Assembly: GCF_007992455.1 (NCBI RefSeq)
Contig: NZ_BKAH01000002.1
Coordinates: 248,001-312,000 of the forward strand
Direction of reading: 5' to 3'
Source: Microbacterium saccharophilum
Lineage (GTDB): Bacteria; Actinomycetota; Actinomycetes; Actinomycetales; Microbacteriaceae
Length of the DNA: 64,000 nucleotides
In this document: positions 2,714 to 22,176 of the stretch, one piece after another
How the letters are laid out: each line of letters opens with the position of its first letter
Position numbering within the stretch: the stretch's first letter is position 1
The notes under the pieces: generated by a model
The model's database searches: none
What the model was told of the DNA's origin: nothing
The model's input: the letters and a program-made list of their open reading frames with translations, nothing else
Made by a program: the position numbers and the translations under genes

Positions 2714-4282
2714 TCAGGAGGGGTCGCTGCGGCGCGTCTGCGGCAGAGTCGGCTGCGTTCCGGTGGGCTGGCCGTCGGTCGGCTGCGTGCCGGTGACGGG
2801 CGCGCCACCGGCACGCGGGCCGAAACCGAGGTCGCCGATGCTCGCGGCGCTCGGCACCTGTGCGATGGGGCCCGTGCGCTTGCGGCCCTTCGCGGCCTTC
2901 TTCGCGGTGCCCTTCTCGACGTACCCGCCGTAGCCGCCATAGCCGTAGCCGTAGCCGCCGTAGTACGAGTCGGGTCCGCGGGTCGGCACCATCGACATGA
3001 CGATGCCGGCGACCTTCGCGCCCACCGTCTCGAGGGCGTCGGTCGCGCCCTGCAGCTGGTGGCGGGTGGTGCGGCCCGCGGCGACGATGACGAGCGCGCC
3101 GCTCGTGGCCCGGGCAAGGATCGCGCCGTCGGTGACGGGCAGGAGCGGGGGAGCGTCGCACAGCACGACATCGAAGTCGCGCTCGAGCACGTCGAGGAGG
3201 GTCTTCATCTGCTTCGAGCCGAGCAGCTCGCTCGGGTTCGGCGGGATCTTGCCGGCCGGGAGCACGTAGAGGCTGCGGCCACCCCACGGGAGCATCACGT
3301 CGCCCACGCGGGCGCGACCGATGAGCACGTCGGTGAGACCGGCGCCGCCCTCCATGCCGAGGTACTCGGCGACCTTCGGCTTGCGCAGATCGGTGTCGAG
3401 CAGGGCGACGCGCTTGCCGGCATCCGCCAGCGCGATCGCGAGGTTGATCGTCGTCGTCGACTTGCCTTCGCTCGGCACCGAGCTCGTGACGACGAAGCTC
3501 GAGCGGCCCCCCATGTCGAGGAACTGCAGGTTGGTGCGGAGCGCGCGGAACGACTCGGCGCGGGGGCTGAGCGGGTCGGCGTGCACGATGAGCGGCCGCT
3601 CCTTGGCCTTCGGGTCGAACGCGATCGCGCCGATCATCGGGGCCTTCGTGACCTGCTCGGCGTCGCGCGGCGTGCGCACGCGGGTGTCGAGCACCGACCG
3701 CAGCACGGCGATGCCGATGCCGAGCGCGAGGCCGACGAGCGTGCCGAGCGCGAGGTTCAGGGGCGTGTTGGGGCTCGCCGGGGTGAGGGCGGGCTGCGCG
3801 TCGCGCACCCGGGTGAGGCGCACGGGGCTGACGTCGCTGTCGTTCGGGGTCTCGATGCTCTCCACGGCGCTCGTGAGGCTCGCGGCCAGCGCATTGGCGA
3901 CATCCGCGGCCCGCACCGGGTCGGGGTCTTCCACGAGGATCGTGATGAGGGTGGAGTTGAGCGCCGACGACGCCGTGACCGACTTCGCGAGCTCACCGGC
4001 GGTGATGCCGAGCTCGAGCTCGGCGATGACCGGGTTCATGACGATGGGCGTCGGGACGAGCCCGACATACGTGTTGATGCGCGCCTGCGTGAAGCTCGAG
4101 CCCTGCTGCAGCTCGGCGACGGTGCCGCCGGTCTGCGTGGAGACGAAGACGGTGCTGGAGGACTCGTACGTGGGCGTCCTCGTGAGGGAGTACGCCGCCG
4201 CCGCGCCGAGGCCCAAGAGGCTGGCGACGACGATGATCGCCCAGCTCTTGCGCAGGATGCGGATGTAGTCGCTGAGCTCCAT
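2714..4282 (-). CDS. Wzz-domain bacterial tyrosine kinase (CpsC/CpsD fusion)
   Basis: Polysaccharide co-polymerase with a BY-kinase, controlling chain length and export of EPS. The 522-residue product starts with a Wzz domain; membrane helices are at about residues 14-33 and 172-195. The cytoplasmic kinase follows, with Walker A SSVPSEGKST (267-276), Walker A' LLDTDLRKP (294-302) and Walker B VVLCDAPPLLP (372-382). A Tyr/Gly-rich patch at about 440-455 (YYGGYGYGYGGYGGY) is the likely autophosphorylation cluster, followed by a basic tail. ATG at 4282 has AGAGG upstream; an earlier in-frame codon at 4303 would put that ribosome site inside the gene. The LMW phosphatase upstream is its expected antagonist and the PGT downstream a likely substrate, by analogy with known BY-kinase systems. 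Confidence 0.93.
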   Translation of the reverse strand: MELSDYIRILRKSWAIIVVASLLGLGAAAAYSLTRTPTYESSSTVFVSTQTGGTVAELQQGSSFTQARINTYVGLVPTPIVMNPVIAELELGITAGELAKSVTASSALNSTLITILVEDPDPVRAADVANALAASLTSAVESIETPNDSDVSPVRLTRVRDAQPALTPASPNTPLNLALGTLVGLALGIGIAVLRSVLDTRVRTPRDAEQVTKAPMIGAIAFDPKAKERPLIVHADPLSPRAESFRALRTNLQFLDMGGRSSFVVTSSVPSEGKSTTTINLAIALADAGKRVALLDTDLRKPKVAEYLGMEGGAGLTDVLIGRARVGDVMLPWGGRSLYVLPAGKIPPNPSELLGSKQMKTLLDVLERDFDVVLCDAPPLLPVTDGAILARATSGALVIVAAGRTTRHQLQGATDALETVGAKVAGIVMSMVPTRGPDSYYGGYGYGYGGYGGYVEKGTAKKAAKGRKRTGPIAQVPSAASIGDLGFGPRAGGAPVTGTQPTDGQPTGTQPTLPQTRRSDPS

Positions 4283-6626: not shown

Positions 6627-7241
6627 GTGCCTTCATCCGCCGCTCTTCGCACCTGGCTGATCGCACCGGCTCTTCTCGCCGCGCTCGCGCTCGCCGGGTG
6701 CAGCGCCTCCGCGCCGTGGGCGGCCGACCCGTCGCCGTCGGCGACCCCCACCCCGGTCGCCACCGCGGCGCAGCCCGTGCCGAACGACCTGTCGACCGGC
6801 TCCACCCGCCGCACGCTCCAGGCCGGCCCGCTCGGCCTGTCGATCGACTACTGGTCGGACCTGCTGATGGACAAGTGGACCGCAGGGGCGCTCAAGCCGG
6901 TGAGCATGAACCTGCTCGCCACGGTCACTCCGGATGATGGCAAGTCGGTGTACCTGCAGCGCGCCGCGATGCTCGCGACGCCGATGAACGGCGCCACCGC
7001 GCTGCCGACGCTCGCCGCGCAGGTCGACACGTCGAGCGTCGCGCCGGGCTACCTCGCGCTCGACCCGTACAGCTACTCGCAGACCTTCACGGTGGGCGCG
7101 GTGCCCGAGGAGGCCACGCACGTCGTGCTGCTGTTCACCTACGACATGCTCGTGCAGACCACGCCGACGTCGGACCAGTACGCGAAGCAGACCGCGACCG
7201 ACACGCTCACCGTCGCGATCGCGCCGACGCCCGCGGGCTGA
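6627..7241 (+). CDS. Secreted lipoprotein of unknown function
   Basis: A 204-residue lipoprotein. The signal sequence ends in the lipobox LAGC (ALALAGCSAS), so the mature protein should be lipidated on that Cys and held at the outer face of the membrane. A Thr/Pro/Ala linker follows, then a domain of about 150 residues (TLQAGPLGLSIDYWSDLL onward) that looks beta-rich and is not assigned to a family. GTG at 6627 is preceded by GGGAG. It runs toward the GGDEF-like gene with only six bases between the two stops, and no terminator was seen in that gap. Confidence 0.8.
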   Translation: MPSSAALRTWLIAPALLAALALAGCSASAPWAADPSPSATPTPVATAAQPVPNDLSTGSTRRTLQAGPLGLSIDYWSDLLMDKWTAGALKPVSMNLLATVTPDDGKSVYLQRAAMLATPMNGATALPTLAAQVDTSSVAPGYLALDPYSYSQTFTVGAVPEEATHVVLLFTYDMLVQTTPTSDQYAKQTATDTLTVAIAPTPAG

Positions 7242-7247
7242 CCCGGC

Positions 7248-8405
7248 TCAGACCGCCGCGACCGGGGGATCCACCCGGCGCCACCGGTCGCCGCCGTCGT
7301 CGCGCGCCGCCTCGACGGCGATCGACGCGGCGCGGCGCAGCTGGGGCAGCTCGGCGGCAGCCGGATCGATGGGCACGACGCCCGCGCTCGCGGTGAGGCG
7401 CACCGCGAGCGGGTTGCCGGCGTAGTCGTCGCGGAGGCGGGTGAGCACCGTCCGCACCGACTCGGTCGCCGCCACGGCCGGCAGCGACACGAGCACCAGC
7501 ACCTGGCCCGATTCGCCGCGGCCGAGGTCGGCATCCGCGGGGAAGACGGCGGCGATCGCGCGCTCGAAGTGGCCCGTCACGGTCTCCACGGCGACGTCAC
7601 CCGTGGCGGCCTGGATCTTGCGGAGCTCGTCCATGCGGAAGTCGATGAACGTCCAGGTGCGCTCACCGCGCGTCGCGATGCGGCGGAGGCGCTCGGTGGC
7701 GAGCGCGACGAACTGGGGCGCGGGCAGCACGGGGTCGGACATGCCGGTGGTGGACGGCGCCGCGCGCCAGGTCGCGACGAGGCTCAGCACGGTGACGGTG
7801 ACGGCGACGACGTACACGATCATCGCGATGCTGAGGAGCGCATGCACGGCGTCGAGGGCGGTGGAGCTGCCGGTGGCGATCTCCACGACGATCGCGGCGA
7901 CCACGAGCACCGGGATCAGCGCCGACGTGAGCACGACCGGTGCCGTGAGGCGCGGGTAGGTGCGGGCGAGGAAGACCAGCTCGATGACCAGCAGCACCGC
8001 GAACACCCCGGCGGCGATGAGCTGGAGGAACAGCGCGAGGCGGGCGGTGGACTCGTTCTGCAGCCACCAGAGCATCCCGACGCCGAGCACGGCGATCGCC
8101 GGGCCCACCCAGCCGAAGCTGCGCGCGCCGCGGGACGCCCGGAAGCCGGACCAGATCATGGCGGGCACGCCGGTGAGCGGGGCCAGCGCGATCGTCCGTG
8201 CCGACGGCGGCAGCCCCAGGGCGGTCGCGGTGATCGCGCCCCAGCAGGCGACGAGGGCGAGCGCCAGCGCGGAGGTCCAAAGGGTCGTGGCCGGCACGGG
8301 CAGCGCGAGGAAGCCCAGGGTCGCGACCAGGACGACGCAGGCCGAGACGACGGCGCAGAGGGCGAGCAGGATGCCGGAGGGCTCGGCGGACAGGAAGCTG
8401 GTCAT
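7248..8405 (-). CDS. Membrane protein with degenerate GGDEF-like C-terminal domain
   Basis: A 385-residue protein with about seven membrane helices over residues 1-225 and a cytoplasmic domain of about 150 residues. The domain follows the GGDEF order: TFIDFRMDELRKIQ where a cyclase has its metal Asp, GRGESGQVLVLV where GGDEF should be, and LTASAGVVPI for the usual SxG strand. The active-site signature is lost, so it is probably not a diguanylate cyclase but a regulatory or nucleotide-sensing remnant. Its ATG overlaps the stop of the upstream histidine kinase (ATGA), so the two are translationally coupled. The family assignment rests on motif order only. Confidence 0.75.
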   Translation of the reverse strand: MTSFLSAEPSGILLALCAVVSACVVLVATLGFLALPVPATTLWTSALALALVACWGAITATALGLPPSARTIALAPLTGVPAMIWSGFRASRGARSFGWVGPAIAVLGVGMLWWLQNESTARLALFLQLIAAGVFAVLLVIELVFLARTYPRLTAPVVLTSALIPVLVVAAIVVEIATGSSTALDAVHALLSIAMIVYVVAVTVTVLSLVATWRAAPSTTGMSDPVLPAPQFVALATERLRRIATRGERTWTFIDFRMDELRKIQAATGDVAVETVTGHFERAIAAVFPADADLGRGESGQVLVLVSLPAVAATESVRTVLTRLRDDYAGNPLAVRLTASAGVVPIDPAAAELPQLRRAASIAVEAARDDGGDRWRRVDPPVAAV

Positions 8406-10123
8406 CGCTCCGACACCTCCGCCGCGCCGGCGGTGGCCGGTTCCCCGGCGCCGTCCGCCGGGTCGTGACGCTCGGGGCGCGCCGGCAGGGTGACGGTGAC
8501 CTTCGTGCCGGCGCCCGGCTCGCTCTGCACGGCGATGGTGCCGTTGTGCTCCGCGACGATCGACTTGACGATCCCCATCCCGAGGCCCGTGCCCTGCGTC
8601 GCGCTGGCGCGGGCGCTGTCGCTGCGGAAGTACGGCTCGAAGATCCGCTGCACCTCGCTGTGGCTCATGCCGACCCCGGTGTCGGAGACGACGAGCGTCG
8701 CGGTGTCGCCGTCGTGGGTCGCGGCGATACGCACCCGCCCGCCCTTCAGGGTGTACTTCAGCGCGTTGCTCACGAGGTTGTCGACGACCTGGCGCAGCCG
8801 GAAGGCATCGCCGTCGACGATCACGGCTTCGGCGGTGTCGAGGCGGAGGACGATGCCGGCCAGGCGGGCCGCCGGGTCGAACGCGGTCACCGCGTCGGCG
8901 CAGATCTGGCCGAGGTTGGTCGTCTGCCGGACGGGCTTCGCCGCCTGCGCGGCCGGCGTCTCCAGCAGCTCGCCGATCATCCGCATCATCCGCTCCGCGG
9001 CGGTGTTGATCGCCTCTGCGCGGTCGCGGGTGCGCTCCTCGTCGGTGTCGTCGCTGAGCATCTCGGAGTAGCCGAGCACGGCCGTCAGGGGGTTGCGCAG
9101 CTCGTGCGAGACCCGGGCCGCGAGGCTCTGCCGGTCGGATTCGGCGCGGATGACGTCGGTGATGTCGTGCACGACGAGGAGCGTGCCGGACTCATCGGAG
9201 TCGTCGGTGAGGTCGCGGGCCGAGAAGGAGAGTGCGAACCATTCGCCGTGCTGGTCGAACAGCCAGAGGCGCTCGTCGACGAACCGCTCGCCGGCGACGG
9301 CGCGGGCCAGCGGCTGACGGTCCGGCGGGAGCGGGCGGCCGCGGAAGCCGTCGTACTCCACGGAGCGGGCGCGCGCCGCCGGGTCACCGGGATCGAGCCC
9401 GTACAGCTCGCGGTAGGTCTCGTTGGCGTACACGATGTCGCCGCGCTCGGACAGCCGCACGACGCCGACGTCCACGGCATCCAGCAGGAGCGACACTTCG
9501 CGCTCCTGCCGGCTCGTGCGCTCGACGGTGGCAGCGAGCTTGTCGGCCTGACGGCTGAGCAGCTGCTTGAACGCCCGGTTCTGCGCGGCGCTCGTGCGCA
9601 TGAAGAGGGAGATGAACCCGAACGACAGGAGGGTGACGATGAGGCGCATCGTCGGTCCGGGCTGGCCGAGGATCGCGACGTCGCGGATCACGATGCACAG
9701 GGTGATCAGGCCCAGTCCGCCGACGATCGCGACATGCCCGAAGTACGTGGCGATCCAGACGACCGGGAAGAGCCACAGCGAACCGACGCTGAGCAGCGGA
9801 TCGATCGTGAGGAGCCCGATGGCGGCGATGTCGACGAGCGGCACGACGAGGACGAACGCTTCCGGAAGGCGATCCCACGGTACGGCCAGGGTCGCGGCCG
9901 TCGTCACGATGATGATGGAGATGCCGGCGGTGAACGTCCACGACGTCGTCGCCTGCGGCGCCAGTGCCTGCGCCATCAGCACGAGGATGACGATGATCCC
10001 GGCGAGCAGCAGCTGGGCCAGCCACACCGAGTACGTCCTCGTGCTCACCGCGGGCGTCAACGCACGGGAGCGTGCCAGGGCGCCGTCGGAGGTCACGCGG
10101 CGGCTCGGCGTCGGTGCGACCAT
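8402..10123 (-). CDS. PAS-containing sensor histidine kinase
   Basis: A 573-residue membrane kinase. About six hydrophobic helices occupy residues 30-178. A coiled linker follows (RQADKLAATVERTSRQ), then a PAS domain at about 208-325. The HisKA domain carries phospho-acceptor His340 in RVSHELRNPLTAVLGY. The HATPase domain has the N-box DNLVSNALKY, G1 box VVSDTGVGM, F-box FEPYFRSD and G2 box GTGLGMGIVKS, all intact. It has no response regulator partner immediately adjacent; the nearest is at 12856-13851 on the same strand. It lies between two membrane proteins with GGDEF-like domains, which suggests a single signalling unit. The signal is unknown. Confidence 0.92.
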   Translation of the reverse strand: MVAPTPSRRVTSDGALARSRALTPAVSTRTYSVWLAQLLLAGIIVILVLMAQALAPQATTSWTFTAGISIIIVTTAATLAVPWDRLPEAFVLVVPLVDIAAIGLLTIDPLLSVGSLWLFPVVWIATYFGHVAIVGGLGLITLCIVIRDVAILGQPGPTMRLIVTLLSFGFISLFMRTSAAQNRAFKQLLSRQADKLAATVERTSRQEREVSLLLDAVDVGVVRLSERGDIVYANETYRELYGLDPGDPAARARSVEYDGFRGRPLPPDRQPLARAVAGERFVDERLWLFDQHGEWFALSFSARDLTDDSDESGTLLVVHDITDVIRAESDRQSLAARVSHELRNPLTAVLGYSEMLSDDTDEERTRDRAEAINTAAERMMRMIGELLETPAAQAAKPVRQTTNLGQICADAVTAFDPAARLAGIVLRLDTAEAVIVDGDAFRLRQVVDNLVSNALKYTLKGGRVRIAATHDGDTATLVVSDTGVGMSHSEVQRIFEPYFRSDSARASATQGTGLGMGIVKSIVAEHNGTIAVQSEPGAGTKVTVTLPARPERHDPADGAGEPATAGAAEVSER

Positions 10124-10133
10124 GGTGCCGAGT

Positions 10134-11216
10134 CTACGGTCTCGACGCGGACCGGCTCAGCCGCTCGACCCGGCTCGCGGGGCGCGCCGCGCGCACGATC
10201 TCCGCGACGCTGCGCAGCGTCACCTGCTGCACCGACAGATCGGGCCGGTACTTCACGCCGCGCAAGTCGAGCCCTTCGGCGAACAGCGCCCGGACATCGT
10301 CCTCCACGCCCTCGTCGACCTCGAAGCTCGTCGCCATCGCCGCGAAGATCCCGGGCCGCACCCGGCCGATCACGACGTCGGCCGGGAATGCGGCATCCAC
10401 CGCCTCCAGCAGGGCGGCGAACACCTCCCGCGTCCAGGTGCGACCGTAGGCCGTGCGGTGCAGCGACAGGTCGAGGATGCTGATGAGGACGACCGACCGG
10501 GGCGAGGCCAGGGCGAAGCGGATGGCCGCCGCCGTGCGGAAGGCGCGGATCCCGAGCACGCGCTTCGGGCCCCGCACACGGCTCTCGTCGATGGCGATCC
10601 GGGTGACGCCGTACGCGCACGCGGCCGTCACGACGGCGCCGACGATCCCGCTCGGCGCGGTCGACAGCGCCGCGATGTAGAGCGGGTGGTCGATGCCGAG
10701 CACGGCGGTGCCGACCAGACGTACGAGGCTGTACACCCCGTATGCGCCGACCGCCGCGCCGACGACGGTGCGGCCGACGCTCGGCGGCGCGCTCGGACGG
10801 AAGCACTCCCAGGCAGTCAGGGCGCCCAACACGAAGATCACGCCGAGCTTGGCGTACTGCCCGGCGTCGGGCGAGACCCAGAGGGTGGTCACCCCCACGA
10901 GGGCGGACGGGACGATGACCGCGGGCAGCACCGACCGGACGACGTCGCGCCCGCGCCGCATCGCGGCCCAGAGGAGACCGACGGCCAGCGGCATCGTCGT
11001 GTCCGCGATCACGAGCGGCATGGAGGGGTGCTCGCTGCTGTCCGCAATGACGTAGCCGAGCGTGGACAGCAGGGCGGAGAATGCCCCGATCCCGGCGAGC
11101 ATGGTCATCGGCAGACCGGGCTCCCCGCCACCGCGCTGCCACGGCTGGGCGATCACCATGATGGCGATGCCCATCCCCGACGCGAGGATCAACGCGACCG
11201 CGAACACCTCGACCAC
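10134..11216 (-). CDS. Membrane protein with a possible degenerate GGDEF-like domain
   Basis: A 360-residue protein with about seven membrane helices (residues 5-205) and a cytoplasmic domain of about 150 residues. The segments VVLISILDLSLHR and VVIGRVRPGIFAAMAT sit where the metal Asp and GGDEF loop of a diguanylate cyclase would be, but the signature residues are absent. Its architecture resembles the product of 7248-8405, so the two may be diverged paralogues on either side of the kinase. The gene ends ten bases before the kinase start and is probably the first gene of that operon. The GGDEF link is weaker here than for the other protein. Confidence 0.65.
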   Translation of the reverse strand: MVEVFAVALILASGMGIAIMVIAQPWQRGGGEPGLPMTMLAGIGAFSALLSTLGYVIADSSEHPSMPLVIADTTMPLAVGLLWAAMRRGRDVVRSVLPAVIVPSALVGVTTLWVSPDAGQYAKLGVIFVLGALTAWECFRPSAPPSVGRTVVGAAVGAYGVYSLVRLVGTAVLGIDHPLYIAALSTAPSGIVGAVVTAACAYGVTRIAIDESRVRGPKRVLGIRAFRTAAAIRFALASPRSVVLISILDLSLHRTAYGRTWTREVFAALLEAVDAAFPADVVIGRVRPGIFAAMATSFEVDEGVEDDVRALFAEGLDLRGVKYRPDLSVQQVTLRSVAEIVRAARPASRVERLSRSASRP

Positions 11217-11346
11217 AGCGCTCCCACCGGTTCCGCATCACGGGAGGAGGCGGCGCCTCATCCGTTGCGGAGGTCTTGACCGAGTCTTGAGGTGGCCTCG
11301 ACCGTCTCTCCACGTGACGCGGAGGCAACTCTAGCAAGCTGGACCC

Positions 11347-12822
11347 ATGACGTTCCCGCCGCCCAGCACCGCCCCCTCCTCTGCCCTCGCCACCCGTGGC
11401 GTCCGCCCTGTCGAGCTCGAGGTCACCGGCACGGAGCACGCCGCCTTCCCGTCGGACTTCATCGACGTCTTCGACGACACGCAGCGCGCGACCATCGGGT
11501 GCGTCATCCCCGCGTACAACGAGGAGGAGTCGATCGCGAGCGTCATCGAGAGCCTGCTCTCCCAGACGCGCGTGCCCGACGTCATCCACGTCGTCGTCAA
11601 CAACACGACGGATGCCACCGTCGCGATCGCCTCGCAGTTCGCCGGCGCGCACACCATCACGACCGAGATGGGCGAGCAGTTCACCGAGGTGTTCGTCCAC
11701 GACATCGGCAAGAACCCCGACAAGAAGGTCGGCGCCCTCAACTACGGCTACGCGCTGGTCGAGGGCTACGACTACCTGCTCGGCGTCGACGGCGACACCA
11801 CCGCCGATGCGCGGGCCGTCGAGTACCTCGAGACCGAGATCACGAGCGACAGCCGCATCGGCGGCATCTCGGCGATCTACTCGATTGACAACAAGCCGTT
11901 CAAGGGCCTCGCGTCGTTCCTCATCAGCGGGCAGCGCTCGCAGTTCGCCGCGTTCAACCTGCAGAACCTGCTGCGCGGCCGCAACATGGCCGTCCTCGGC
12001 GGGCAGTTCTCCATCTTCTCCACGCACGCCCTCCGCGAGGTCATGCGCGAGAACCACCAGTCGACCCCGTGGGTGAAGGACAGCGAGGTGGAGGACTCCC
12101 TCCTCTCTCTGCAGATCAAGAGCGCCGGTTACCTCACGAAGATCAGCCCCGTCGCGCGCGCCGACGTGGGCGGCATGACGACACTCCGCGGCCTCGACGC
12201 CCAGCAGGTGAAGTGGACGTACGGGGCCATCGAGCTCATGTGGCCGGGGCAGCGCGGCGACACGAAGGGTCAGCCGTTCCACCCGAACCTGCGCGTCCGG
12301 TGGCTGGAGAACGGCGGCATGGCCGTCAACCTGTTCGTCCGCATCGCCTTCGTGCTGCTGCTGGCCGGGTCGCTGTCGCTCAACGCGTTCGTCTTCTCAC
12401 CGGTGTGGCTCATCCCCATCGCGATGGCCGTCGCCCTGAACGTGCGCATGGCGATGACGATGCAGAACCGCACCCGCAAGGACGTGCTCTTCGCGCTGCT
12501 CATCATCCCGGCGGAGATCTACATGTGGATCAGGCTGTCGCACTTCGCGCGCGCCTGGAGCCGCTTCCTGTCCAAGAAGAAGGTCGACAACTGGGCCGCG
12601 CAGGCGAAGGCGGAGAAGGGCGGCGGCAACGGGCACTGGGTGCCGCTGATCATCGTCGTGGCGATCGTCATCACGCTGGCCGTCATCTGGTCGATGCTCG
12701 GCCCCGTCGTGCAGTCATCCATCCTCTGGGTGGGCTGGCCCATCCTCGGTGTCGTGACGATCCTGCAGACGCTCGGGATGTTCCTCAAGCTCATCCGCCG
12801 TCAGCACGGCTACCGCGTCTGA
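11347..12822 (+). CDS. Processive family 2 glycosyltransferase (cellulose/chitin synthase-like)
   Basis: A membrane beta-glycan synthase candidate of 491 residues. The GT-A domain starts with CVIPAYNEEESIASVI. It has the nucleotide-sugar DGD at residues 148-150, the catalytic acidic motif EVED at 247-250 (position of TED), and QQVKW at 286-290 (position of QxxRW). This set is the signature of BcsA, chitin and hyaluronan synthases. Five to six C-terminal helices (about 320-485) would form the translocation channel. No PilZ domain is visible, so direct c-di-GMP gating as in BcsA is not indicated. It is divergent from the kinase operon, and a GH6 glucanase follows nearby, as in actinobacterial cellulose-like clusters. 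The polymer is not determined. Confidence 0.87.
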   Translation: MTFPPPSTAPSSALATRGVRPVELEVTGTEHAAFPSDFIDVFDDTQRATIGCVIPAYNEEESIASVIESLLSQTRVPDVIHVVVNNTTDATVAIASQFAGAHTITTEMGEQFTEVFVHDIGKNPDKKVGALNYGYALVEGYDYLLGVDGDTTADARAVEYLETEITSDSRIGGISAIYSIDNKPFKGLASFLISGQRSQFAAFNLQNLLRGRNMAVLGGQFSIFSTHALREVMRENHQSTPWVKDSEVEDSLLSLQIKSAGYLTKISPVARADVGGMTTLRGLDAQQVKWTYGAIELMWPGQRGDTKGQPFHPNLRVRWLENGGMAVNLFVRIAFVLLLAGSLSLNAFVFSPVWLIPIAMAVALNVRMAMTMQNRTRKDVLFALLIIPAEIYMWIRLSHFARAWSRFLSKKKVDNWAAQAKAEKGGGNGHWVPLIIVVAIVITLAVIWSMLGPVVQSSILWVGWPILGVVTILQTLGMFLKLIRRQHGYRV

Positions 12823-12855
12823 GCGGCGGGGTCGCGGCGCAGGCCGGGGTCGGGG

Positions 12856-13851
12856 CTAGTACGCGCTGCCGTCGGAGGTGAGCCGGTAGCCGACCCCGCG
12901 CACGGTCTCGATGTACCGCGGGCTCGCGGCGTTGTCGCCGAGCTTGCGACGCAGGTTCGTCATGTGCGCCTCGATGGCCCTCTTGTCGGCGTCGCCGACG
13001 AAATAGGTCGTGACGTACGACTCGCCGCGGAGCAGCAGCGTCAGGTCGGCCTTGCTCCGCACGCGCCGGCGTGACTCCATGAGCGCGGCCAGCAGGTCGA
13101 ACTCGGTGCGGGTCAGCTCGAGCTCCTCGTCACCGACGAGCACGACGCGGCTGTCCGGGTCGAGACGCAGGTCGCGGTGCGTCATCCAGTGCGCTCCGTC
13201 CGGCGCGGCCGCGACGGCGGCCGGCTGCTCGACGATGCGCGCGACGTCACCGGATCCGGCCGGGGTCGGCGGCACGGGCGCGGCCGGCGCGACCGGCATG
13301 CTGCTGGTCGCCGGCTGCCGTCCGGCGGGGAAGGACGGGCCGGCGCTCTCCTGCGCACGCGGCGCCGGGGCGAGCGGGGCGCGCGGGCGGCGCAGCAGCG
13401 CTTCGATGCGGGCGCGGAACTCGCGCGGCCGGAACGGCTTGTGGATGAAGTCGTCCGCGCCGGCGGACAGCCCGAGGACCACGTCGGCCTCGTCGTGCAG
13501 CGCCGTGATCATGATGAGGTAGGTCTCGGGGTTCTGCGCGCGGATGCGGCGCGCGGCCTCGAAGCCGTCCATCCCCGGCATGTTGACGTCGAGCGTCGTG
13601 ATGAGCGGCGCGTACTGCGCCACGGCGCGGACGCCGTCGATGCCGTTGCCCACCGAGACGGTGGAGAACCCGGCCGATTCGAGCACGTCGATCAGGAGGT
13701 GGCGTACCTCGGGATCGTCCTCGACGATCACCGCGGTCTTGATCGGTTCTTCTGATTCGGCCAACTGATCCCTGGTCATCCTCTGAGCCGTCTGCGACGT
13801 GCGCCGTCGCTGCCCGCGCGGGGGCGCGGAGTAGTCGTCATCCTCCCACAT
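12856..13851 (-). CDS. OmpR-type response regulator with long linker
   Basis: A DNA-binding response regulator of up to 331 residues. The receiver domain has acidic pocket residues VEDD, phospho-acceptor Asp88 in LDVNMPGMDG, the Thr of MITALHD and Lys of HKPFRPREF. A Pro/Ala-rich linker of about 60 residues follows, unusually long for the family. The winged-helix domain is at the C-terminus (LELTRTEFDLLAALM, IEAHMTNLRRKLG, ETVRGVGYRLT). Neither start is strongly supported: ATG at 13851 lacks a clear ribosome site and ATG at 13779 has AGAGG placed too close. No kinase is adjacent; the PAS kinase at 8402-10123 is the nearest candidate partner. Confidence 0.9.
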   Translation of the reverse strand: MWEDDDYSAPPRGQRRRTSQTAQRMTRDQLAESEEPIKTAVIVEDDPEVRHLLIDVLESAGFSTVSVGNGIDGVRAVAQYAPLITTLDVNMPGMDGFEAARRIRAQNPETYLIMITALHDEADVVLGLSAGADDFIHKPFRPREFRARIEALLRRPRAPLAPAPRAQESAGPSFPAGRQPATSSMPVAPAAPVPPTPAGSGDVARIVEQPAAVAAAPDGAHWMTHRDLRLDPDSRVVLVGDEELELTRTEFDLLAALMESRRRVRSKADLTLLLRGESYVTTYFVGDADKRAIEAHMTNLRRKLGDNAASPRYIETVRGVGYRLTSDGSAY

Positions 13852-13884
13852 GCGTGTGGCGGGAGGGACTATTGGGGCGGAGCG

Positions 13885-14913
13885 TCAGCCGACCGAGCGG
13901 GTCAGCTCGGTCACCGCATCCGGCCACCACTGACCGGCCGGCGGGCCGCCGTTGCAGGCGCCGTCGCTCTCGCCGGGCGGCTTGATCCACAGGTTGGCGT
14001 CGACGATGTCGTCGCCGAACGATCCGCTCCGCTGACCGACCTGCCGCCCGCCGGGGTTGCACCACTCGCCGGTCGCGCCGGCGCCGTTGCGGCTCGTGTC
14101 GATGACGGCGTGCAGCCCGCCGAGGTGGGCCGACAGGCTCCGCGCGTACATGACCTCGGCGGCGTCGGCGTTGTAGTTCGACACGTTCGTCGCGAAGCCG
14201 CGGATCATGTGGGTGACCCCGATCTGCGAGATGAGCCGCGCCATCTCGGATGCCGGACGCCAGTTCGAGTGGCCGCCGTCGAGGTAGAGCCACGCGGTGC
14301 GCGCCTGCAGGTTCGTCACGGCGGTCGCGATGTGCGCGAAGCGCTCCGTCATCCCGTCGCACTCGGGGGCGAGGGCCACCGCATCCGGCTCCACGATCAC
14401 CACCGTCGGCGTCTCCGCCGCGCGCAGGGCGTCGCCGATCGCGAGGGTCCAGTCGTCGTACGCGGCCGGGTCGAGCCCGCCCGCGGACTGGTTGCCGCAG
14501 TCCCGGTCGGGGAGGCCGTAGACGACGAGGACGAGGGTCGCATCCTGCTCGCGGGCCTCCGCAGCCAGCGCGGTCACCTCGGCGCCGACCGTCTCGATCG
14601 GCATCGCCTCGGGCGTCAGCCACACCGCCTCGGGCTGGGACGCGAGATACGCCGCGGCGCGCGTGGCCGGGTCACCCGCCGTGCCGGAGGCCGCGGCATC
14701 CACCGCCTTCGAGGCGGAGGGCACGTGGAACGCCATCCCGGGCGCGGCGGCGGTGAAGGGGAGGAGGCGCACGTACGCCGTGGTCAGCAGCGGCACCGAC
14801 AGCACGAGCATCACCGCAGCGGCGCCGGCGATGACCGTCAGGGCCGTGGAGGCGGTGGAGGCGGTGCCCCGTCGGGGGCTGCGTGGACGCACGCGTCCGA
14901 ATATATAGCGCAT
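13885..14913 (-). CDS. Glycoside hydrolase family 6 beta-1,4-glucanase, membrane-anchored
   Basis: A 342-residue GH6 enzyme expected to cut beta-1,4-glucan outside the membrane. After a basic N-terminus and one helix (about 24-46), the family blocks appear in order: VVYGLPDRDCGNQSAGG (conserved Asp and Cys), VIVEPDAVAL, WLYLDGGHSNW, FATNVSNYN, VIDTSRNG, GEWCNPGGRQVG and LWIKPPGESDGAC. The key Asp, Trp and disulfide Cys positions look intact. ATG at 14913 has GGAG about nine bases upstream. Small membrane-tethered GH6 enzymes accompany cellulose-like synthases in actinobacteria (CslA-GlxA-CslZ in Streptomyces), so a role in trimming or releasing the glycan made by the GT2 at 11347 is inferred. 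Confidence 0.92.
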   Translation of the reverse strand: MRYIFGRVRPRSPRRGTASTASTALTVIAGAAAVMLVLSVPLLTTAYVRLLPFTAAAPGMAFHVPSASKAVDAAASGTAGDPATRAAAYLASQPEAVWLTPEAMPIETVGAEVTALAAEAREQDATLVLVVYGLPDRDCGNQSAGGLDPAAYDDWTLAIGDALRAAETPTVVIVEPDAVALAPECDGMTERFAHIATAVTNLQARTAWLYLDGGHSNWRPASEMARLISQIGVTHMIRGFATNVSNYNADAAEVMYARSLSAHLGGLHAVIDTSRNGAGATGEWCNPGGRQVGQRSGSFGDDIVDANLWIKPPGESDGACNGGPPAGQWWPDAVTELTRSVG

Positions 14914-19614: not shown

Positions 19615-22176
19615 TCATCGCCGGACAAGGGCGATCGCCTCGTTGACGGACAGGTCACGCCCCTGCGCGATCGCCTCGTCGAGCTCTGCCGTCCGCCCGT
19701 CGGCGCGCAGCCGCTCCAGCGGGCCGGCGAAGAAGTCGAACGCGCCCGGGTTCATGACGCCCTTCCGCAGGCGCAGCGCCTGCGCGGCGCCCAGCAGCAG
19801 CCCCGCGCCGCGCGCGTCGGACTCCGCGGCGCGGAGGCCGACGAAGCCTTCGAGTCCGTAGGCGATGCCCTCGTCGTGGCCCAGGGCCAGGGAGAGATCG
19901 AGTCCCGCGCCGAACTCCTGGCGTGCCCCCTCGAGATCGCCGAGGAAGAGCCGGGCCCAGCCGAGGTGGTTGTGCGCGATGACGATGCCCAGTCGCTCGC
20001 CCTGCGCGGTGGCCATGCCGAGGCTGTCCTCGAACCGGCTGCGCGCCCCGGCGGGGTCGCCGACGGCGAGCGCGATGCGGCCGAGCATGACGAGCGACAT
20101 CGCCTGGCCCCAGGTGTCGTCCCCCGCCCGGAAGCCGCTCAAGCTGCGTTCGAGTTCAGCGGCTGCGGCGGGGACGTCCGGCCCCGTGGGCCGCGCGAGC
20201 TGCGCCAGCCCGATCGAGACCCCGGCCAGGGCTGCACCCGCCGGATCGCCGGTGGCGTCGAAGAGGTCGCGGCTCTCGGTCAGGTCGTGCCGCGGGTCGT
20301 ACGCGGCATCCTGCCAGAACCGGATCGCGGCGGTGTAATACAGCGCGATCGCGCGACTGTGCGGAGCCAGGTCGCCGCCCGCCGCGGCGAGCAGCTGGGT
20401 CATGAGAGCGCGCACGACACCCAGGTACCCGCCGATCCACAGGTACAGGTACAGCGACCACGCATACTCCGCGGCCTCGTCGAACCGGCCGCGTTCGACG
20501 AGCTCCCGCCCCACGGCGGCGATGTTCTCCGACTCGAGTTCGAGCGCCGCCAGCTGCTCGAGCTGATCGGGGCCGCGCAGCCGCGGCGCCGCGCGGGCCA
20601 CCACGGTGCAGTAGTGCTCGATCCAGGCCGTCACCGACCGCTCCCGTTCATCGTCTGCGGCGAGCTCTGCCGCGTATGTCCGCACCGTCGTGAGAAGGCG
20701 GTAGACCCTCGTGTCACCCTCGACGCCGTGGCCGACGAGGCTCGCGTCGATGAGACCGGCCAGCGCATCCAGGGGAGCAGCGACGCCGGCGGCCGCCAGC
20801 ACACGCTCCGCCGACGTGACGGTGAACGCCCCTCGGAAGGCGGCGAGGGCGGCGAGGGCCCTCCGCTCCGAGGTGCCGAGCAGCTGCACGCTCCACGCCA
20901 TCGTCGCGCGCAGCGTGCGCTGCCGCTCCGGAAGGTCGCGCGGCCCCTCCCACTCGCCGAGCGCCGTGTCGAGGCGGGCGAGCAGGTCGGCGGGGGCGAG
21001 CGTGCGCAGCCGCGCCGCGGCGAGCTCGATGGCCAGCGGGACTCCTTCGAGGGCGCGGCAGATCTTCACGACATCGCCGACGTTGGCCGGTGTCAGCGTG
21101 AACCCGGGCTGCACCGCGGCACCGCGCTGGACGAAGAGGGCGAGGGCCGCGGAGCCCTGTGCGGCGGTGACGTCGCGCGTGCCGTCCGCCGGGACGGCGA
21201 GCGGACCGACCTCCACGACCCGCTCGGGCCGCACCCGCAGCGGCGCGCGGCTCGTCACCAGCACCTGGAGGCGCGGCGTCCCGGTGATCAGCTCCATCAC
21301 GGTGGCGGTCGCCCCGAGCAGGTGCTCCATGTTGTCGATCACGAGCAGGGTGTCGCGCTCGCCGATCGCCGAGATCACCCGCTCGGTGAGGGATCCCGCG
21401 CTCGCCGCGTCGCGCACGCCGAGCGAGCGGGCCAGCGCATCGATCACCCGCTCCGGGGAAGACACCGCCTCCAGCAGCGTGAACGCGACATCGCGGCCCG
21501 CGCGGGCGACCTCGAGGGCGACCTCGATGGCCAGCCGCGACTTGCCGATGCCGCCCGCGCCGGTCAGGGTCACCAGGCGGGTGCTCTCCTGGGCGAGCAG
21601 AGCCAGGGTGGCGTCCCGCTCCGCCTCCCGGCCGACCAGCGGCGAGTAGGGAGCGGGGATGCCGGGACGCGGCATCTGCTCGGCGGGGCGCTGGGCCCGC
21701 GCCTGATCGAACTGCTCCGTCAGGAGCACGGCGAGATCGTCCTGCAGCAGCCGGCCGAGCTCCTCGGCATCCCGGAACGACTTGTACGACACGCGGTCGT
21801 CATCGCGGATCCGCTGCAGAAGCTCCTCCAGGCGCGGCTCACGCGCGCCGGCGGGCTCGCGGACGTAGATGAGGCTCGGCATCCCCGCCGAGAGGCGGTA
21901 CTCGTCCTCCAGGCCGGAGACGTCCTCGCCCGGCGCGACCCACCCGTACTGCTGGCCGTACACCCCGACGAACACGTCGCTCTGGGCGAGGTAGGAGCGG
22001 TACAGCTCGCGCGGTGGATGCGGGCGGGCGCCCAGCTCGAACATCACCGGCGCGAGACGGAGCCGCTCGATCGCGGCGCGCGCCGCCCGGCGCTCCGGCT
22101 CGAGCTCACGCAGTGTGGAACTGACGAAGATCCGGAGGCGCTGGTCGGGAGTGCGGATGGCGCGTGGCGCGGCCAT
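19615..22176 (-). CDS. DUF4062-STAND ATPase with TPR-like C-terminus
   Basis: An 853-residue signal-transduction ATPase. Residues about 14-110 match the DUF4062 pattern (RLRIFVSSTLRELEPER, SDVFVGVYGQQYGW, SLIYVRE). A STAND NTPase follows, with Walker A GAGGIGKS (206-213), Walker B LLVIDN (277-282), VLVTSR and GVPLAIELAAARL. The rest, from about 490, is helical and repeat-like, consistent with TPRs that sense a ligand. No helix-turn-helix is visible, so it is not an ordinary LuxR/AfsR-type regulator. Members of this class include regulators and, in other STAND families, defence proteins; which applies here is unknown. ATG at 22176 is preferred over a TTG at 22194. It is followed by a membrane protein and bracketed by palindromic repeats. 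Confidence 0.82.
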   Translation of the reverse strand: MAAPRAIRTPDQRLRIFVSSTLRELEPERRAARAAIERLRLAPVMFELGARPHPPRELYRSYLAQSDVFVGVYGQQYGWVAPGEDVSGLEDEYRLSAGMPSLIYVREPAGAREPRLEELLQRIRDDDRVSYKSFRDAEELGRLLQDDLAVLLTEQFDQARAQRPAEQMPRPGIPAPYSPLVGREAERDATLALLAQESTRLVTLTGAGGIGKSRLAIEVALEVARAGRDVAFTLLEAVSSPERVIDALARSLGVRDAASAGSLTERVISAIGERDTLLVIDNMEHLLGATATVMELITGTPRLQVLVTSRAPLRVRPERVVEVGPLAVPADGTRDVTAAQGSAALALFVQRGAAVQPGFTLTPANVGDVVKICRALEGVPLAIELAAARLRTLAPADLLARLDTALGEWEGPRDLPERQRTLRATMAWSVQLLGTSERRALAALAAFRGAFTVTSAERVLAAAGVAAPLDALAGLIDASLVGHGVEGDTRVYRLLTTVRTYAAELAADDERERSVTAWIEHYCTVVARAAPRLRGPDQLEQLAALELESENIAAVGRELVERGRFDEAAEYAWSLYLYLWIGGYLGVVRALMTQLLAAAGGDLAPHSRAIALYYTAAIRFWQDAAYDPRHDLTESRDLFDATGDPAGAALAGVSIGLAQLARPTGPDVPAAAAELERSLSGFRAGDDTWGQAMSLVMLGRIALAVGDPAGARSRFEDSLGMATAQGERLGIVIAHNHLGWARLFLGDLEGARQEFGAGLDLSLALGHDEGIAYGLEGFVGLRAAESDARGAGLLLGAAQALRLRKGVMNPGAFDFFAGPLERLRADGRTAELDEAIAQGRDLSVNEAIALVRR

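Follow-up and report, generated by a model that had tools for sequence, protein, structure and literature searches.

The stretch analysed here, hereafter the window, comprises 64,000 nucleotides of the Microbacterium saccharophilum genome (contig NZ_BKAH01000002.1, positions 248,001 to 312,000; the source contigs form genome G000, 3.0 Mb in 31 contigs). It contains a block of genes predicted to encode a glycan synthase, a glycanase, a two-component system, a lipoprotein and two polytopic membrane proteins related to diguanylate cyclases. This block is a recurrent and conserved module of the Microbacteriaceae, and a tandem repeat in front of its synthase gene looks like an operator. The original prediction, made from the sequence alone, had placed six open reading frames at 7248-14913, all of which exist at these positions. 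The block itself is larger, as the lipoprotein gene at 6627-7241, which the prediction had left outside, is by its conservation across related loci a core member. The features, with the names used below, are as follows.

6627-7241, forward strand: LP1, exported lipoprotein with an LAGC lipobox and a predicted 8-stranded beta-sandwich
7248-8405, reverse strand: G1, protein with about 7 transmembrane (TM) segments and a degenerate GGDEF domain at residues ~240-373
8402-10123, reverse strand: HK, histidine kinase with about 5 TM segments and PAS, HisKA and HATPase_c domains (Pfam)
10134-11216, reverse strand: G2, paralog of G1 with 7-8 TM segments and a strongly eroded domain of predicted GGDEF fold
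11264-11307, forward strand: predicted operator, four tandem 11-bp units between the divergent genes G2 and GT2
11347-12822, forward strand: GT2, glycosyltransferase with a GT-A domain (PF00535) and a C-terminal membrane part
12856-13779, reverse strand (with an alternative start 12856-13851): RR, response regulator of the OmpR/PhoB type with a linker of about 80 residues
13885-14913, reverse strand: GH6, membrane-anchored family-6 beta-1,4-glycanase (PF01341)

Gene content of the block and its recurrence in the Microbacteriaceae

The stop of HK and the start of G1 overlap by 4 bp. A pattern search located the H, N and G boxes of the kinase, and the regulator matched PF00072 and PF00486 (Pfam), i.e. 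the receiver and Trans_reg_C domains of the OmpR/PhoB class, with the receiver motifs recognised by eye. The PAS kinase and the regulator with a long linker are thus as predicted. LP1 was modelled with AlphaFold2 (AF2) at a mean confidence (pLDDT) of 86.7, and its fold neighbours (arrestin C-domain, ApaG and transglutaminase-like proteins, Z 9-11) indicate a generic beta-sandwich; a Pfam scan detected no family above the cut-off, and among 25 relatives sharing 43-62% identity Cys25 is invariant.

GT2 carries the motifs DGD148, VED248 and QQVKW286, the last in place of QxxRW, in invariant columns of an alignment of 11 sequences. Its hydrophobic segments form a C-terminal membrane part, and no N-terminal TM segment is present. 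The best NCBIfam match was the PgaC/IcaA family (E 1.3e-14, 54 bits against a cut-off of 422), and the comparison with the PDB yielded weak, generic glycosyltransferase matches only, far from the solved synthases. Of the features of a BcsA-type enzyme, a PilZ match was not obtained with GT2 and QxxRW is replaced by QQVKW. The description of the synthase as BcsA/chitin-synthase-like was therefore too specific, and a cellulose synthase identity was dropped as unproven in view of the weak NCBIfam and PDB matches and the QQVKW motif. The proposed membrane GH6 glucanase is well supported: the protein matches PF01341 at 3.3e-54, has one N-terminal hydrophobic segment and, aligned to mycobacterial Cel6 (1uoz), conserves YGLPDRDC, IVEPDA and WIKPPGESDG, which we take to contain the active-site residues.

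Related loci were selected by GT2, and the best 80 of 310 matches are referred to as named loci. Gene content was tallied in the 65 of these that span at least 19 kb, the 15 shorter ones being set aside. RR and GH6 were present in all 65 long loci, LP1 in 64, HK in 54 and G1 in 53; LP2, a second lipoprotein gene, was found in 44, G2 in 22 and a gene for an HPt-like (histidine phosphotransfer-like) protein in 4. G2 is an optional member. A full-length GT2 occurs in 14 of 35 Microbacterium genomes, the host included, and GT2 matches at E<=1e-20 were obtained in 48 of 299 Microbacteriaceae genomes and 20 of 85 genera. Most named matches belong to Microbacterium, and the nearest is that of an uncultured Microbacterium isolate (L067, 90%), where G1 was missed by the gene caller and recovered by tblastn at 83%. 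One named locus lies outside the family (L135, titled Sanguibacter). Of 20 loci taken from other module genomes, L062-L065, whose four GT2 proteins are the most divergent, do not carry the set.

The order in many Microbacterium loci is LP1, G1-HK, (LP2), (G2), GT2, RR, GH6, and in other genera HK-G1, LP1, GT2, (HPt-like), RR, GH6, in varying genomic settings. That the same set is kept in differing surroundings argues for one system. The expected conservation in other Microbacteriaceae is borne out in so far as the genes are kept together, but not for the order, which varies, nor for G2, given its presence in only 22 long loci. The arrangement, which had been called unusual, is instead a recurrent module of the family and not a local oddity.

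Several further observations concern the module genes elsewhere. LP2, an exported lipoprotein and distant relative of LP1 (hhalign 96%), is encoded immediately before GT2 or G2 in many Microbacterium genomes (52 loci, among them L077:6907-7710). This actinobacterial module is also present, at 74% identity, on a short contig with the title Stenotrophomonas maltophilia (L121:1-6031), probably as a contamination of that assembly. Three Microbacterium loci retain G1-HK, RR and the repeat described below next to a GT2 shrunk in frame to 240, 234 and 161 aa (L044:8360-9082, L045:7162-7866 and L046:8837-9322, GT2 coordinates); these genes contain no stop and have lost most of the membrane part, and GH6, G2 and LP1 were not found at these three loci. 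The shrunken proteins may represent an exapted GT-A domain or slow decay, selection being inseparable from ancestry here. In other genera an HPt-like protein of ~120 aa is encoded between GT2 and RR (L048:10169-10519, L049:10060-10434, L053:10435-10818 and six further loci). Of these nine proteins, eight give a weak Pfam Hpt match (E<=1, best 1.2e-4), and all nine have an invariant leucine opposite what we take to be the phospho-histidine in a weak alignment (E 0.2).

Degenerate GGDEF proteins and the c-di-GMP background

The original prediction had described two polytopic proteins ending in GGDEF-like domains devoid of the signature, which holds for G1 by profile and for G2 by paralogy and predicted fold. 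With this result and with the joint conservation of the genes, the single-system idea outlasted both refuting conditions set in that prediction, even though G2 has no plain profile match. In a profile search G1 matched PF00990 at E 3.5e-4 with 20.8 bits, i.e. under the cut-off of 23.8, and 20 of 24 G1 homologs matched at E<=1 (best 2.9e-19). A G1 profile searched against the PDB reached a cyclase at 1e-16 and retrieved 52 distinct sequences at E<=0.01, all of the cyclase/GGDEF type by name or domain content; a few of them have general names, and their GGDEF content is presumed by us. The C-terminal domain of G1 is hence, judged by these profiles, a GGDEF homolog without the signature. G2 fails the plain profile search, with no Pfam match at E<=10, no GGDEF match in any of seven G2 members and a best E of 0.042 for its profile in the PDB. 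However, it aligns with G1 in hhalign at 99.5% over 270 columns (16% identity), spanning the membrane part and the C-terminal domain. Its AF2 model (pLDDT 81.7) was matched by Foldseek mostly to GGDEF or cyclase structures (45 of the 50 matches listed, at modest E-values of 1.4e-4 to 2.8e-2). A VIA comparison of the same model listed 7TM bundles, near the warning range of the tool for helical folds; GGDEF chains are absent among the matches listed, probably since the helical part of G2 fills the list. G2 is accordingly described as a G1 paralog with a predicted GGDEF fold.

At the aligned A-site columns GG[DE]EF was found in none of 79 distinct full-length G1 proteins, the nearest string being GGGRF; GGDDF-like strings in 11 G1 lie off these columns (10 near residue 182, one at 241). 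The signature string is likewise missing from 30 distinct G2 proteins. RxxD was not detected at the aligned I-site columns of any of the 79 G1 and 30 G2, the anchor columns of G2 being set by eye. Outside the family, three full-length relatives from two families of the same order have GGEEF or GGDEF and are canonical cyclases. Since signature and I-site motif are lost and the full-length relatives elsewhere are canonical, G1 and G2 look like retired cyclases. A role as anti-phage proteins was dropped as PADLOC gave no hit.

Cyclic di-GMP (c-di-GMP) controls many bacterial polysaccharide synthases. In the host genome a search with PF00990 matched only G1 itself, below the cut-off, and the EAL and PilZ profiles had no match, HD-GYP enzymes not having been searched for; control genomes built into these searches were positive. 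PilZ was matched neither in GT2 nor in the 35 Microbacterium genomes searched, and none of five module genomes of one further genus (g72) encodes a GGDEF protein at E<=1e-15. Genomes can therefore carry the module and yet lack a recognised cyclase. The claims that the synthase has no PilZ domain and that no direct c-di-GMP switch is indicated agree with these results and with the absence of the I-site motif at the aligned columns.

An exclusion of c-di-GMP genes by the module was considered and dropped. Strong GGDEF proteins occur in 1 of 14 Microbacterium genomes with the module vs 6 of 21 others (Fisher p 0.20), a count confined to the 35 genomes. Family-wide the figures are 23 of 42 module genomes vs 98 of 257 other genomes (p 0.06), in the direction opposite to exclusion; this count used 42 of the 48 GT2 genomes (E<=1e-100) and left out 5 of 28 GGDEF matches at E<=1e-15 as weak and possibly G1 itself. 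An association of the shrunken GT2 with strong GGDEF proteins (3/3 vs 4/32, p 0.005) was not counted, the three genomes looking like one clade.

In the named loci, a same-strand HK lies within 47 bp of every one of the 61 called G1 genes, with a 4-bp overlap in 50 cases; these values are based on gene calls and supersede 25/53 obtained from stop-to-stop frames. The host genome encodes two additional sets, one of G1-HK-RR (G000:C2 ~230930-234528) and one of HK-G1 with a single-domain RR (G000:C8 ~79322-82585). Taken together with the pairing at all 61 called G1, these sets indicate that the G1-HK pair is a recurrent unit untied to the synthase. Mainly due to this recurrent pairing we read G1 as a partner of the kinase and not as a subunit of the synthase.

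Tandem CTTG repeats upstream of the synthase gene

Between G2 and GT2 the window contains the four units GTTGCGGAGGT CTTGACCGAGT CTTGAGGTGGC CTCGACCGTCT (11264-11307). A spaced 4-mer search detected CTTG-N7-CTTG in 52 of 88 non-redundant GT2 upstream regions vs 14-16 for the best dyad in five shuffles, and the aligned sites consist of two 11-bp units with a consensus of about AATCTTGAGGAAATCTTGCGG. A position weight matrix (PWM) of 51 sites gave 111 matches scoring 13 bits or more in 1.44 Mb and 4 in shuffled DNA; 105 of the 111 precede module genes, 4 precede other genes and 2 are intragenic. The shuffles in both tests were made in 2-mer blocks and are not strict dinucleotide shuffles, and the matrix was trained on 51 of the sites which it then recovers, so the control with the exact repeat in 800 other genes is cleaner: within 250 bp upstream, the exact repeat precedes GT2 in 48 of 79 cases vs 1 of 800 non-cluster genes. 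The window copy scores 22.7 bits at 11272, and no other match in the window reaches 13 bits.

The exact repeat was also detected upstream of G2 (24/28), HK (13/67), LP2 (17/51) and LP1 (4/72), the divergent regions being partly shared, and a PWM box lies at most 350 bp upstream of GT2, LP2 or LP1 in 74 of the 80 loci. In genome G006, which lacks the module GT2, the box is retained between G2 and an RR whose binding domain is 86% identical. Regulators of the OmpR/PhoB class typically bind tandem repeats spaced by one helical turn. The repeat looks like an operator of this type, and the regulator encoded at 12856-13779 is its likely reader. For the proposed control through phosphorylation, this predicted operator at the synthase promoter adds support, while the phosphotransfer itself is a step that we infer.

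Other GT2 operons, paired with genes of hydrolase-like proteins, are likewise preceded by boxes in G009, G006 and G020; these proteins are either GH18-like/CBM5_12 or GH16-like, the latter label being our assumption from a motif, with no Pfam match to GH16. In G009 (L158:5836-9936) a double box precedes the genes for a 744-aa GT2 and a GH18-like/CBM5_12 protein, which suggests a regulon of synthase-hydrolase pairs. The host itself has a triple repeat box at G000:C2:219311-219344 (L150:8312-8345), in a gene-poor gap upstream of truA and ~29 kb to the left of the window; no convincing remnant of a cluster gene was recognised in the surrounding gap.

Proposed circuit, rival explanations and related systems

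We consider it slightly better than an even bet that the kinase, together with a pseudo-GGDEF co-sensor, drives the regulator to turn on GT2 with GH6 trimming the product, c-di-GMP being uninvolved. Its computed support is the gene linkage, the intact kinase and regulator motifs, the degenerate GGDEF domains, the lack of recognised GGDEF, EAL and PilZ proteins in the host genome and the predicted operator. A membrane signal would be received by G1/HK, G1 (with G2 where present) being a retired diguanylate cyclase that may act as membrane co-sensor or brake of HK by protein contact with the adjoining kinase rather than via c-di-GMP. HK would phosphorylate RR, which would bind the tandem CTTG repeats (11 bp each) that separate the divergent promoters, and would switch on GT2 and, depending on the clade, the divergent or co-directional genes G2, HK-G1, LP1 or LP2. 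GT2, as a putative processive enzyme, would extrude a beta-linked polymer, the membrane-anchored GH6 most likely trims or releases it, judging from its likeness to CslZ of Streptomyces, and LP1 may be an exported, extracellular partner. What we infer in this scheme is each of the contacts, the transfer of phosphate to RR, the direction in which control runs and the nature of the polymer. A broader reading, to which we give a little less than an even chance, is that a lineage of membrane cyclases became c-di-GMP-free contact partners of kinases and forms a three-component family represented three times in this genome, with one copy commanding a beta-glycan synthase via a dedicated operator; related genera may have added a second retired domain in the HPt-like protein, with leucine in place of histidine.

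A number of results weigh against the proposed circuit. The exact repeat was found within 250 bp upstream of none of 79 RR and 71 GH6 genes, so that co-regulation of GH6 may be absent. HK is missing in 11 and G1 in 12 of the 65 long loci, which extend ~9 kb to each side of the synthase, in a few loci HK is present but no G1 was called (L103, L113), and in G006, where G2 and RR are present, no HK was seen within 3.3 kb. The strong GGDEF proteins in 23 of 42 module genomes could let c-di-GMP feed in there; these 23 include G271, a Microbacterium module genome that is not counted in the 35. Genome-wide, the repeat occurs 22 times in 14 module-bearing Microbacterium genomes vs 20 times for a reversed-pattern control, and two of the 14, G025 and G031, lack it entirely; 17 genomes that do not carry the module have fewer matches to it than to the control (8 vs 34; Fisher p 0.003). 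G006 and the genomes of the three shrunken GT2 were excluded from this comparison. Since the counts in module genomes are near the control, the evidence from the repeat lies in its position and not in its number, and a genome-wide regulon derived from pattern counts was dropped.

We regard it as unlikely that G1 and G2 are still receptors of c-di-GMP or another guanine nucleotide, with a remodelled site, tuning the synthase or the kinase as do PelD, SgmT and BcsE. Degenerate GGDEF domains of polysaccharide or matrix systems can indeed bind c-di-GMP, as described for PelD (PMC7112168), SgmT (PMC3509222) and BcsE, module genomes often encode cyclases family-wide, and RxxD strings are present at other positions within residues 220-300 (51 of 79 G1, 3 of 30 G2). 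None of these proteins, however, has RxxD at the aligned I-site columns, as would be expected of I-site receptors of the PelD/PopA/SgmT type, and the host has no GGDEF match above the cut-off, no EAL and no PilZ, the last being absent from the 35 Microbacterium genomes as well. Still less probable is that the two-component genes belong to one system and GT2-GH6 to another, the two being no more than neighbours in a region of ribosomal-protein and exopolysaccharide (EPS) genes, with RR acting elsewhere. Such a separation would fit the several loci in which kilobases of other genes separate GT2-RR-GH6 from G1-HK, the G1-HK sets without GT2 and the three genomes that retain G1-HK-RR with a shrunken GT2. 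It is at odds with the presence of RR alongside GT2 in all 65 long loci and with the repeat, which stays at the synthase promoter or, where LP2 directly precedes GT2, before LP2.

The likely reader of the repeat is contested as well, and there is perhaps a one-in-five chance, in our view, that one or more paralogous regulators bind it instead of the RR at 12856-13779. The host has a second RR with a DNA-binding domain 60% identical, and a similar box lies near a transporter-like operon (labelled by eye) in G002, whose best RR binding domain shares 62%. By contrast, the RR binding domains of G006, G009, G015 and G020 are 84-88% identical, with at least 3 pattern matches in each genome, these four having been picked because they had boxes, and the box of G006 adjoins RR. 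We retain the regulator of the block as the likely reader and the kinase-driven circuit as the preferred interpretation.

Apart from the block, the window encodes a chain-length-determinant-like protein at 2714-4282 according to the gene calls, and at ~30900-57560 a long run of what are presumably sugar-nucleotide and glycosyltransferase-like genes (the label at 2714-4282 being likewise our assumption), so that the module probably adjoins an EPS region. A protein of 853 aa (19615-22176) has a start which we take to resemble a DUF4062-type large regulator.

A cyclase family seems to have been kept, stripped of its chemistry and re-used beside a kinase in a host without a recognised cyclase. The module therefore offers a natural test of what the GGDEF fold can do without the nucleotide, and through the predicted operator the entire circuit is accessible to experiment in Microbacterium. 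For this family, whose members are associated with soil and plants, it furthermore represents a candidate pathway to a matrix polysaccharide.

No paper on the module was present among the matches listed from the open-licence PMC literature. With respect to its synthase, the module resembles the processive glycosyltransferases of the PgaC/IcaA type, the nearest NCBIfam family, in having a GT-A domain followed by membrane helices, but differs from them in its score (54 vs the 422-bit cut-off), in QQVKW instead of QxxRW and in the lack of N-terminal membrane helices. PelD of the Pel system in Pseudomonas and Bacillus cereus is, similar to G1 and G2, a membrane protein with a degenerate GGDEF domain encoded in a polysaccharide locus. 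PelD keeps RxxD, which G1 and G2 lack at the aligned columns, and binds c-di-GMP (PMC7112168), and streptococcal PelD, from species not known to use c-di-GMP, is entirely devoid of the GGDEF domain, whereas G1 and G2 keep the fold.

The Streptomyces cslA-glxA-cslZ locus likewise combines an actinobacterial GT2 with an adjoining membrane-associated GH6, CslZ (PMC11022532, PMC9040799), which has the active-site residue Asp120 and helps to deposit the CslA glycan (PMC9040799). A GH6 homolog is correspondingly found in 65 of 65 long loci. According to these papers, CslA has a partial PilZ domain, with c-di-GMP lifting its activity to full, and needs the copper oxidase GlxA; in contrast, GT2 has no PilZ domain, and no GlxA-like domain was detected in the module genes scanned, the genome not having been searched for GlxA. 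The kinase, regulator, pseudo-GGDEF and lipoprotein set further distinguishes the module from cslA-glxA-cslZ. Myxococcus SgmT/DigR (PMC3509222) also joins a histidine kinase, a degenerate GGDEF domain and a response regulator in the control of extracellular matrix genes. There the GGDEF domain is part of the kinase SgmT, keeps the I-site and binds c-di-GMP, whereas G1 is a separate 7TM protein without the I-site motif in a genome without a recognised cyclase. CslA-CslZ is thus the closest known system in its enzymes, and SgmT/DigR the closest in its logic.

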